A DNA stretch of 64,000 bases from Nitriliruptoraceae bacterium (GTDB lineage Bacteria > Actinomycetota > Nitriliruptoria > Nitriliruptorales > Nitriliruptoraceae), in assembly GCA_018401275.1 (NCBI GenBank), contig JAGYKW010000002.1, positions 1 to 64,000 on the forward strand. The letters are read 5' to 3'. The first letter of the stretch is position 1. Each line of letters opens with the position of its first letter. The position numbers were made by a program, and so were the translations under genes. This document shows, in pieces, positions 42,182-46,100 of the stretch. The notes under the pieces were generated by a model. The model worked only from the letters and a program-made list of their open reading frames with translations. It was not told where the DNA came from and ran no database searches.

Positions 42182-43015
42182 TCAGAGCGCCCGACGCCGG
42201 GCGCGCAGGCGCGCCCAGCCCCACGACAGGAACGCGAGCAGTCCGGCGGCGAGCGCAGCGACGACGAGCGGCACGTTCAGCGGCTCGTCGACGGCGGTCG
42301 ACGGCGCGAGGACCTCGAGCGCACGCGCACGCACGGTGATCCCGCCGCCGTCGGCCGGGTCGGTGCGCAGCAGCAGGCCCTCGATGCGCACGACGTCCCC
42401 GCGGCGCCCGTGCCGGCCCGGAGCGCCGAGCCCCTCGTGCAGGCCGTCGGGCAGCCAGACGGTGAGGCCCGAGCTGAACCCGAGCGGCTCGCGGTGGGCG
42501 CCGAACGGTCCGAGCTCGAGCGCGTACGCATCATCGTTCACCTGGACCCATGCGCCGCCGTCACGCCGCAGCACGTCGCCGACGACCTCGCCGACGTACA
42601 CGACGTCGCGACCGGCGAGCAGACGCGGGCAGGCGGACACGATCGCGGACGTGATGCGACCCTCCGGGCGCAGCACGCGGCGGACGTCATCGACGCTGGC
42701 ACGCTCGTCCGACCGCGTGCACCGGACCGGTTCGTCGAGCAGCGGCTGCGGCAGGTCCGCGACGGCCTCGGTCGACGAGGGCAGGCTCGGTGCCGAGCGA
42801 TCGAGCACGCTCGTGAGTGCGAGCAGGATCCCGAGCAGGCCGGCGACGCCGAGCAGCGGCCAGCGGACCCTGCGCCGGTCCTGCACGCGCGTGCGCTCGG
42901 TCCCCGAGGTGCCGGTGCGTCCAGCGGCCCGGTCGCTGCGCCGATGGCTGGTCTGCACGCCGTCCTGCGCGCCGTCCGGCACGCCGTCTCGCTCGTCGCT
43001 GTGCTCGACGCTCAT
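42182..43015 (-). CDS. Membrane protein with OB-fold-like exported domain (unknown), trk operon
   Basis: A 277-residue protein: a charged, Gly/Asp/Arg-rich cytoplasmic N-terminus (about 50 residues), a membrane helix (about 53-71), a large exported domain, then a second helix near 247-268 and a basic tail. The exported domain has the strand pattern VVYVGEVVGDVLRRDGGAW and GDVVRIEGLLLR, which resembles an OB fold of the nucleic-acid/cofactor-binding type; this is a visual impression. The ATG overlaps the trkH stop (ATGA), so it is translated with the potassium channel. No function known. Confidence 0.68.
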   Translation of the reverse strand: MSVEHSDERDGVPDGAQDGVQTSHRRSDRAAGRTGTSGTERTRVQDRRRVRWPLLGVAGLLGILLALTSVLDRSAPSLPSSTEAVADLPQPLLDEPVRCTRSDERASVDDVRRVLRPEGRITSAIVSACPRLLAGRDVVYVGEVVGDVLRRDGGAWVQVNDDAYALELGPFGAHREPLGFSSGLTVWLPDGLHEGLGAPGRHGRRGDVVRIEGLLLRTDPADGGGITVRARALEVLAPSTAVDEPLNVPLVVAALAAGLLAFLSWGWARLRARRRAL

Positions 43016-44547
43016 CGTGACACCCGACCGAGCACGCGGCTGCCACGCCGGAACGAGAGCAGGTAGCCGAACAGCACGAGCACGGCGACGAACTCGAGAC
43101 GGCCGAGGATCATCTGCACGATGTAGACGGCCTGCAGGGTCGGGGACATCGCGGGCTCGACGACGCCGATGGAGATACCGATGTTCGCGCCGATCGACAC
43201 GCCCTCGAACAGGGCCTCGGTGAGGTCGACGTCGCTCGTGATCAGCGCCGTCATCGTGCCGAGCAGGAACGAGAGCACGAACAGCAGCAGCACGGTCGTC
43301 GCGGCACGTGCCGTCTCGGGCCGGAGGATGCGCCGCCGCCCGACGTGGTAGGAGGTCACGACGACCGCGGACTCCGGCAGCAGGAAGCGGCGGATGTCGT
43401 GGACGACGCCCTTGAACGCGAGGGCGACGCGCAGCGCCTTGACCCCGCCGGCGGTCGACGACGCCATGCCTCCGATCGCCATCGCGCCGACGATGGCGGC
43501 GGGCGCGAGCACGCCCCAGTCCGTGAGGTAGGTCTCGCCACTGTTGACCTGGTGTCCGGTCGAGCTGACGGCGGACAGGAGCGTGAACAGTCCCTTGCGC
43601 ACGAGCGCGGCGAGATCGCCGTAGGTGCCCTCGCGGACGAGTCCGAGGCTGAGGAGCACGAGCAGTCCGGTGCCGGTGAGCGCGAGCGTGCGCGTCTCGA
43701 GATGGTCGACGAACTCGCGCAGGTCCCGTGACCACAGCGCGTGGTGCAGCGCGAAGGAGAGCATGCCGGCGAACATCAGGAGCATCACGAACAGCTCGAC
43801 CCAGGCCGAGTGGTAGTAGGCCATCGAGGCCTGCATCAGCGAGAAGCCACCCGTCGAGAACGAGGAGGCGAACAGCGCGACCGCGTGCTCGAGCGCACGG
43901 AGCGGCGCGAACCCTGCGTTGAGCAGCGCCGGCACGAGCGCGACGAGGCTCGCGACCAGGAAGGCCGCGGTGACGCGTGCGATGAAGCGCGACGTGCGGA
44001 GCACGTTGGGGAGGATGCGTTCGTCTCGGGCCTCGGACACGTACAGCGTCCCGACCCGTGACCCTCCGGCGCTGAACAGCGCGAGGATCACGATGATGAT
44101 CCCGAGCCCACCGGCGAGCTGCAGCAGGTGGCGGTACAGGCCCATCGACGTCTCGAGATGGTCGAGATCATGGATGACGGACATGCCGGTCGTCGTGAGT
44201 GCGCTCGTCGCCTCGAAGTACGCGCCGAGCGCGCTGGTGAAGCGGCCGGAGACGTGCATCGGGATCGCCGCGAACGCCGAACCGACGATCCACGCGAGCG
44301 CCACGATGACCATGCCGTGCGCCCAGCTGAGTGTGCGACGGGTCTCGAGGTGCGCGTCGGCGAGCCAGCGCACGCTCAGGCTGATCCCTGCCCCGAGGCC
44401 CAGTGCCGCCGCCGCATTCCACTCGCCGAGCGCGAGCGCGACCGGCACCGGCGCCAGCATGACGACACCCAGGCCACCGAGCACCTTCCCGAGGTAGAAC
44501 CCGATGATGCGCAGGTCATCGACGTCGGGCCGCAGCACGGAGCTCAT
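43012..44547 (-). CDS. trkH: Potassium uptake protein TrkH (channel subunit)
   Basis: A 511-residue membrane protein with the four pore repeats of the SKT family. The selectivity-filter segments are visible in order: LTTTGMS, SFSTGGFS, SSTGHQVNSG and SIGANIGISIG. Each carries the central Gly that coordinates K+. It forms a K+ channel gated by the TrkA ring encoded just upstream. The ATG overlaps the stop of the 50-codon ORF, and its own stop overlaps the OB-like gene. Confidence 0.92.
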   Translation of the reverse strand: MSSVLRPDVDDLRIIGFYLGKVLGGLGVVMLAPVPVALALGEWNAAAALGLGAGISLSVRWLADAHLETRRTLSWAHGMVIVALAWIVGSAFAAIPMHVSGRFTSALGAYFEATSALTTTGMSVIHDLDHLETSMGLYRHLLQLAGGLGIIIVILALFSAGGSRVGTLYVSEARDERILPNVLRTSRFIARVTAAFLVASLVALVPALLNAGFAPLRALEHAVALFASSFSTGGFSLMQASMAYYHSAWVELFVMLLMFAGMLSFALHHALWSRDLREFVDHLETRTLALTGTGLLVLLSLGLVREGTYGDLAALVRKGLFTLLSAVSSTGHQVNSGETYLTDWGVLAPAAIVGAMAIGGMASSTAGGVKALRVALAFKGVVHDIRRFLLPESAVVVTSYHVGRRRILRPETARAATTVLLLFVLSFLLGTMTALITSDVDLTEALFEGVSIGANIGISIGVVEPAMSPTLQAVYIVQMILGRLEFVAVLVLFGYLLSFRRGSRVLGRVSR

Positions 44548-44696
44548 CGCGCACCACCGATCACGTCACCGGCGAGCAGCAGGACCAGGCCCATCACGAG
44601 GACCGAGCCGGCCAGCGTGATGAGGCCCAGGCCGACGACGGTCGCGACACCCCGGACGTCGGCGCGCCACGAGAACCGGCGCCGACCGAGCACCAT
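44544..44696 (-). CDS. 50-residue single-helix membrane protein between trkA and trkH (candidate small gene)
   Basis: The ATG at 44696 shares a base with the trkA stop (TGATG) and its TGA shares four bases with the trkH start (ATGA), so the ORF fills the gap exactly. It encodes a short basic N-terminus (VLGRRRFSWRADVRG), one long hydrophobic segment (about residues 18-43) and the tail DVIGGAR. By the positive-inside rule the N-terminus is cytoplasmic. Too short for most gene finders. The perfect coupling on both sides argues for a translated gene, perhaps a small Trk subunit comparable in position to KdpF; that role is inference. Confidence 0.72.
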   Translation of the reverse strand: MVLGRRRFSWRADVRGVATVVGLGLITLAGSVLVMGLVLLLAGDVIGGAR

Positions 44697-45358
44697 CAGC
44701 GCACCCCGAGCAGGGCTGCGGTGAGCGCATCGCCGGAGTCCGATCCGGTCAGCGCGATGATCTCGTCCCCTGGCACGATCTGCGTCCCACCGCGCGGGAT
44801 GATCGTCTCATCACCGCGGAACACGGCGACGATGACGACGTCGTCAGGCAGGGGGATCGTGTCGAGGCGGCGCGCGGGTGGTGCCTGTGGACCGTCGGGG
44901 ATGCGGATCTCGACGATGCTCGCGCGACCGCCTCGCAGCGACGTGAGATGGATGAGTTCGCCGACGGAGAACTCGTTCTCGATCAGCTCGGAGATCAGGC
45001 GGGTCGAGGACACGGCCTCGATGCCGAGGACCTGGAAGATCTCCACGTTCTTCGGATCGTTCACCCGGCTGATGACACGCTTCGTCTCGAACTCGATGCG
45101 TGCGAGCTGGCAGGCCACGAGGTTGAGGTCGTCCTCGTGGGTCGTCGCGACGAACACGTCAGCACGCTCGGTGTGGGCCTGCTCGAGGTAGCGCAGGTCC
45201 GCCGCATCGCCCTCGATGACGAGCACCCCGGTCTCGGCGACGAGCGACTCGACGCGGCCGCCCTGGAGCTCGATGACGGTCACCTCGTGCCCCTTGTTCA
45301 CGAGGTCGCGCGCGACGTAGCGACCGATCCGTCCCCCACCGACGATCACGACGTACAT
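44696..45358 (-). CDS. trkA: TrkA family potassium-channel regulator (second copy)
   Basis: A 220-residue RCK protein. The Rossmann NAD-binding motif is YVVIVGGGRIGRYVARDL, then VIEGDAADLRYLEQA and ATTHEDDLNLVACQLA. A C-terminal RCK_C domain (about residues 140-218) follows. Such rings gate TrkH in response to ATP/ADP, NAD or c-di-AMP. The ATG at 45358 starts one base after the stop of the first TrkA. Confidence 0.9.
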   Translation of the reverse strand: MYVVIVGGGRIGRYVARDLVNKGHEVTVIELQGGRVESLVAETGVLVIEGDAADLRYLEQAHTERADVFVATTHEDDLNLVACQLARIEFETKRVISRVNDPKNVEIFQVLGIEAVSSTRLISELIENEFSVGELIHLTSLRGGRASIVEIRIPDGPQAPPARRLDTIPLPDDVVIVAVFRGDETIIPRGGTQIVPGDEIIALTGSDSGDALTAALLGVR

Positions 45359-45359
45359 G

Positions 45360-46100
45360 TCATGCCTTCCCATACTCAGAGTCGCGCTCCGAGCCGTGCT
45401 CGGGGCCGGCATCCGGCGTACCGTCATCGTCGCCGAGGACGTCCTCACGTTCGAGGTCGTGGACGAGGTGCGCGAGTCCGCGCGCGCTCGCTGGTCCGAC
45501 GGCGGCGGTCACGATGTCGCCGCGCTGCAGCACCTCGCGCTCGTCGGGGATGCGGACCCGTCCGCTGCGCTGGAGGGCGGTGATGCGGACCGGGCCGTAC
45601 GACTCGAACTCGGCGACGCTCAGGCCGTGCCCACCGCTGTCGACCTCGAGGTCGACGACGGACACGTCCTCATCGGGGAACATCACGTGCAGCGGCAGTG
45701 CGCCGCGGAACTCGTTGAGGAACAGCTTCGCGATCGCGCCGGTCGATGACACGTACTGCACGCCGAGTCGGCGGTAGACGTCGGCGTTGTCGGGGTTGAA
45801 GAGCCGAGCGACGCTGCGACGCACGCCGTAGAGGTGGGTCGCGATCTCGACGGCCATCAGGTTGGTGTTGTCGGAGCGGGTGACGGCGATGAAGCCGTCA
45901 GCGTCGGCGATCCCGGCCTGCTCGAGGACGTCACGGTCGGTGACGCTCCCGACGACCGTCTCGCCGTTGAACGTGGTCCCGAGCCGGTCGAAGGCGCGCG
46001 GGTCGTTGTCGACGACGACCACGTCATCATCACGGTCGGCCGACAACTGCTCGGCGATCGCGGAGCCGACGAATCCGCAGCCCCCGACGATGATCAGCAT
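45360..46100 (-). CDS. trkA: TrkA family potassium-channel regulator (first copy)
   Basis: A 246-residue paralogue of the next gene. The Rossmann motif is LIIVGGCGFVGSAIAEQL, then SDNTNLMAVEIATHL and an RCK_C domain. An extra acidic tail of about 30 residues ends in SERDSEYGKA. Tandem trkA genes are frequent in actinobacteria (ceoB/ceoC type), where two RCK proteins form one gating ring. It heads the trk operon and diverges from ispH. Confidence 0.9.
   Translation of the reverse strand: MLIIVGGCGFVGSAIAEQLSADRDDDVVVVDNDPRAFDRLGTTFNGETVVGSVTDRDVLEQAGIADADGFIAVTRSDNTNLMAVEIATHLYGVRRSVARLFNPDNADVYRRLGVQYVSSTGAIAKLFLNEFRGALPLHVMFPDEDVSVVDLEVDSGGHGLSVAEFESYGPVRITALQRSGRVRIPDEREVLQRGDIVTAAVGPASARGLAHLVHDLEREDVLGDDDGTPDAGPEHGSERDSEYGKA

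Follow-up and report, generated by a model that had tools for sequence, protein, structure and literature searches.

A conserved small membrane protein encoded between trkA and trkH is a probable third component of Trk potassium uptake

Trk potassium uptake is, in textbook terms, the work of two proteins, TrkH and TrkA. In the portions of the literature drawn on here, TrkH is described as a channel that is closed by ADP-bound TrkA and opened by ATP-bound TrkA, whereby gating shifts both a loop inside the membrane and the interface of the TrkH dimer (PMC6987127). The Thermotoga maritima system (TM1088A/TM1088B/TM1089) combines TrkH with two short TrkA polypeptides encoded by overlapping trkA genes, and both TM1088 and TM1089 are reported to be needed for survival in low K+ (PMC4380455). 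In KtrAB, disordered N-terminal tails of KtrB lie at the ring/channel interface, are needed for ATP-mediated opening and have been suggested to make membrane contact during that opening (PMC12059179). KdpF is a 30-aa membrane peptide that is transcribed together with kdpABC and presumed to stabilise that K+ uptake complex (PMC3618439), while in animals a K+ channel is regulated by the small accessory KCNE (minK) beta-subunit via contacts between membrane-spanning segments (PMC2659744, PMC1978535). Searches of the open-access literature turned up no title or abstract opening on a small subunit linked to TrkH or TrkA, and the words "Trk" and "potassium" are absent from the main text of a survey of small membrane proteins (PMC10903887).

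The locus described here resembles the T. maritima system in having two short TrkA chains and TrkH. It also encodes a small membrane protein, a kind of subunit that goes unmentioned in the portion of the T. maritima account drawn on here (PMC4380455).

The trk locus of the window

The window is the whole 64,000-nucleotide stretch of DNA that was analysed. It derives from a 1.73-Mb assembly of 39 contigs, and its trkH is the sole TrkH match in that assembly. In minus-strand order the locus comprises five genes, all abutting or almost so:

45360..46100, minus strand: first trkA (trkA1), with TrkA_N and with TrkA_C slightly below the cut-off
44696..45358, minus strand: second trkA (trkA2), with TrkA_N and TrkA_C
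44544..44696, minus strand: small ORF, 50 aa, with one transmembrane (TM) segment, a basic N-terminus and R-G-V-A where the helix begins
43012..44547, minus strand: trkH, 511 aa, K+ channel/transporter subunit (Pfam PF02386, E 1.4e-37)
42182..43015, minus strand: 277-aa protein with two hydrophobic segments, right after trkH (ATGA overlap)

Pfam matched PF02254 in both trkA genes, and the weak TrkA_C match in trkA1 scored 26.7 bits against a cut-off of 27. In Trk systems of the TM1088 type, one of the two short TrkA chains has a C-terminal domain and the other lacks it. The start of trkA2 was placed at MYVV from its likeness to relatives. The small ORF runs from an ATG at 44696-44694 to a TGA at 44546-44544 and encodes MVLGRRRFSWRADVRGVATVVGLGLITLAGSVLVMGLVLLLAGDVIGGAR. 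It is joined to both neighbours: the final A of the trkA2 stop (TGA, 44698-44696) is the first base of its ATG, giving TGATG, and its own stop overlaps the trkH start in an ATGA at 44547-44544. These overlaps, together with one strong hydrophobic stretch preceded by a basic N-terminus, had been pointed out in a preliminary description of this DNA and are seen directly in the sequence. The 277-aa protein matched no family in a Pfam scan and is probably part of the same operon as trkH. Proteins resembling it, as judged by eye, follow trkH or lie between tandem trkH copies at loci L030, L031, L067 and L069.

Family searches placed the small protein in no known group. The window protein had no match in Pfam, its sole match in NCBIfam (CbtA, E 0.047) was without meaning, and among 39 members no convincing match to either library was found. 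DUF2273 (0.0055), ADOP (0.0034) and others each matched one of the 39 and were rejected, as they look like chance matches to a TM segment. A profile of the small protein found no PDB chain at E <= 1.

KdpF is similar in kind, as it too is a short one-TM protein of a K+ uptake operon. The preliminary description had called it an analogue in position and not a homologue, and the scans agree. Both Pfam and NCBIfam presumably include a KdpF model, and this model was matched neither by the window protein nor by 7 distant relatives or the 39 members, so that homology to KdpF was rejected. The neighbours of the small ORF are trkA and trkH rather than kdpA or kdpB, and the window protein differs from KdpF in having TrkH instead of KdpA as its likely partner, in being longer, and in its basic tail and G-x-x-x-[EV] pattern. 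We class the locus as a Trk operon that includes an extra small subunit, and not as a case of KdpF.

Conservation of the small gene and selection on it

Searches with TrkH covered the order (36 genomes), the class (66) and the phylum (246), as well as named genomes, from which 80 loci were kept out of 496 encoding a relative. At loci L002-L029 an ORF of 43-51 aa and the same build lies directly upstream of trkH in 28/28 cases; trkA is in view at 27 of these, the contig of L015 stopping before it. L030 and L031, two trkH copies beside which no trkA was found, lack the small ORF. It recurs elsewhere in the class, in other Actinomycetota, in Acidimicrobiia and in Omnitrophota.

After deduplication, the set held 194 distinct trkH starts, of which 146 have trkA within 450 nt, 46 do not, and 2 lie on contigs too short to tell. 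A short single-TM ORF is found in the trkA-trkH gap at 143 of the 146 distinct junctions, which represent Actinomycetota, Omnitrophota and one Margulisiibacteriota genome and some of which were checked by hand. As its check, the preliminary description had proposed to look in related trk operons for a conserved ORF of 45-60 codons in the same position; the conservation proved to extend far past the family. At 118/146 junctions the ORF start and the trkA stop lie no more than 10 nt apart, with an exact ATGA/GTGA or TGATG junction at 73/146.

Three junctions (L080, L129 and L219) were counted as lacking the ORF. At L129 and at L219, the Margulisiibacteriota locus, trkA touches trkH with no ORF between them. 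In the set of 79 loci that included those of Acidimicrobiia and Omnitrophota, 72 were flagged automatically and 6 more by eye, which left L219 without an ORF. Automatic picks were shortened at L029, L087 and L194 and fell on a trkH fragment at L113 and L115, in both of which a true small ORF exists. At the latter two loci the small ORF is separated from trkH by a partial extra trkH start, either a broken duplicate or a sequence error. L088 keeps the reading frame, and none of the usual start codons occurs where trkA stops.

The window is rich in chance ORFs, and the small ORF might in principle be one more such product of a high-G+C genome. However, under a strict rule (an ORF of 30-70 aa that begins close to where trkA stops and ends close to where trkH starts, applied to gaps of useful length only), an ORF was found in 131 of 136 gaps, compared with 3.6 expected from dinucleotide shuffles of the same 136 gaps and 0/136 when the gaps were reverse-complemented. 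The ORF is also present at Omnitrophota loci, where Lys, Ile and Phe are abundant in the encoded proteins, and it is under purifying selection.

Between the window gene and that of L003, the nearest usable relative (TrkH 85% identical), dN is 0.182 and dS 0.727, a dN/dS of 0.25; a ratio near one had been named beforehand as the result that would speak against the gene. For a broader estimate, 45 disjoint pairs were picked by TrkH identity (0.75-0.97) and not by likeness of the ORF, since pairs chosen in the latter way lean towards low dN. The 43 that yield a ratio have a median dN/dS of 0.33 (range 0.08-1.14), and pooled substitutions at codon positions 3/1/2 over the disjoint pairs number 842/529/405, a pattern that looks clearly coding. 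A few pairs have a dN/dS near or above one, values that mark the small protein as fast-evolving. These comparisons of related sequences show the small ORF to be a real gene, that is, coding DNA under purifying selection, and a chance origin, to which we attach next to no probability, was rejected on the shuffle test and on selection.

The probable partner of the small protein

A profile built from 39 members was scanned against the 66 class genomes and gave a match at E <= 0.01 in 51 of them. At E <= 1e-4, 38/38 matches adjoin a trkH, 10 of the 38 genomes concerned having also supplied rows of the profile. Some weaker matches lie distant from trkH, as is expected of a short hydrophobic model. 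TrkH found no match in 10 of the class genomes; 9 of these had no profile match either, and the tenth had a weak one (E 0.006).

The small ORF also precedes trkH copies for which no trkA was seen directly upstream. A TM ORF precedes 35 of the 46 trkH starts without trkA. Inspection by eye removed 10 of these ORFs as tails belonging to the downstream protein of the 277-aa type, to trkH or to some other ORF, so that 25 remained; five further loci that do have trkA upstream (L069, L091, L098, L122 and L217) were taken off, leaving 20 copies. At 14 of the 20, the upstream gene was named, by eye, as something other than trkA:

L062, L064, L065: uracil phosphoribosyltransferase-like
L063, L068, L225: response regulator
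L066: HesB-like
L110, L137: HypB- or HypE-like
L111, L117, L120: phosphatase-like
L149: deaminase-like
L170: permease-like

The response regulators at L063 (oriented 1368-2282), L068 and L225:2589-3290 have a KdpE-like look, a hint of K+-responsive control.

A tree of TrkH comprised 193 tips, 166 with the small ORF, 22 without it and 5 of a classical TrkH outgroup. The ORF accompanies 166/188 of the non-classical tips, across Actinomycetota and Omnitrophota, and no TM ORF was found upstream of the five outgroup genes, L109 having too little upstream sequence to judge. The 22 tips without it are mostly second tandem copies or stand-alone trkH genes; a tandem second trkH with neither trkA nor small ORF is found at L067, L085, L093, L099, L100 and L101. 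The small ORF thus follows TrkH through evolution and is old in this branch, with several losses, mainly in second tandem copies and stand-alone trkH genes, being probable. TrkH can thus exist without the small protein, unless a copy encoded elsewhere serves it in trans.

The small protein could instead be a membrane anchor for the TrkA ring and no partner of TrkH at all. It adjoins trkA at 143 junctions, as follows from the definition of a junction, and it is mostly absent from second trkH copies that have no trkA. Against this stand the 20 pairs of small ORF and trkH with no trkA seen directly upstream, in whose genomes trkA may sit elsewhere, and we consider such an anchor quite improbable. 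Because the small ORF also precedes trkH copies without adjacent trkA, TrkH is most likely its partner.

Build and putative role of the small protein

AlphaFold predicts a single helix spanning residues 10-47 (mean pLDDT 84.7), with pLDDT of 97-98 in the helix core and 64 over the first ten residues. The sequence is loosely kept (column identity averages 25% in an alignment of 39 diverse members), yet the TM region is almost gap-free across 170 aligned small-protein sequences. Most of the loci L002-L029 share the motif R-G-[VIT]-[AG] at the start of the helix, one Gly being invariant in 28/28. In the larger alignment a near-invariant Gly is present in 153/170 and is followed four residues on (+4) by Glu in 102 or Val in 51, the Glu count being two too low, as the true ORFs of L113 and L115 also have Glu. 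A small residue occupies a half-way position (Ala in 105 and Gly in 37 of the 170).

The +4 residue is Val or another apolar residue in Nitriliruptoria, including the window, and Glu in most other lineages, and the tree of TrkH requires at least six changes between the two states. Residue 164 of TrkH (numbered on the window trkH, 43012-44547, minus strand) is Gly in the Glu lineages and mostly Arg otherwise. Columns such as this one were considered as contact partners of the Glu and set aside: one large clade drives most of the signal and no contact is claimed.

K/R-rich flanks of membrane helices mark the cytoplasmic side, as stated by the positive-inside rule. Because K/R residues are commoner before the helix than after it (154/170), the small protein presumably lies N-in/C-out.

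The overlaps at both its start and its stop would suit a leader whose translation delivers ribosomes to trkH by coupling, the peptide itself doing little. A mere leader would, however, be hard to reconcile with a median dN/dS of 0.33, a gap-free TM core, the conserved Gly and Glu/Val positions and the N-in charge bias; moreover, the ORF persists at L156 and L223 even though about 100 nt lie between its end and trkH. We regard a leader without further function as very improbable; coupling may be an added role of the small ORF. A membrane chaperone or assembly factor, which would act in insertion or folding of TrkH and take no part in the finished channel, would fit a gene that lies just upstream of trkH and overlaps it, as well as a single TM helix of loose sequence, features that suit a lasting subunit equally, and we judge it unlikely.

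The reading that we favour, and hold to be likely, is that the small ORF encodes an accessory subunit of one branch of TrkH. This unnamed membrane protein is then probably a third component of Trk K+ uptake that has been overlooked, and it may stabilise or tune the TrkH channel. The preliminary description had proposed a small Trk subunit or modulator; that remains the best reading and gains from the linkage to TrkH over TrkA, and binding to TrkH and an effect on K+ transport are the parts we infer.

In the mechanism that we propose, the small protein would be made and assembled together with TrkH. Its helix would insert N-in/C-out and pack on TrkH via a face of small residues formed by the conserved Gly and the Ala/Gly column, and at the rim of TrkH it could help to keep the dimer interface or the pore helices in place. 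Less surely, the basic, partly disordered tail would lie at the cytoplasmic face by the TrkA ring, where it could touch the ring or lipid and might stabilise the complex or bias gating, much as KtrB does in cis with its own N-terminal tails. In KtrAB the tail is part of the channel chain itself; the small protein, whose tail shows basic charge and lower pLDDT, could give such a tail in trans.

A wider proposal, which is possible and which we advance tentatively, is that Trk has three parts throughout this branch in Actinomycetota and Omnitrophota: the TrkA ring, the TrkH pore and an obligatory single-TM beta-subunit acting like KCNE. The opening of TrkH by the TrkA ring would then be tuned by the basic tail and by the residue at +4 after the conserved Gly near the helix start, which is Glu for most lineages and Val for Nitriliruptoria. 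KCNE is eukaryotic and unrelated by any evidence here, the analogy being one of mode of action only.

The small protein forms a family, defined by its motif and its place, that is absent from the curated libraries searched here (Pfam, NCBIfam and PDB). The locus offers a simple genetic system for the question of how single-helix peptides tune ion channels. A small gene conserved in two phyla would mean that work on TrkH and TrkA alone has left out a component of this branch.
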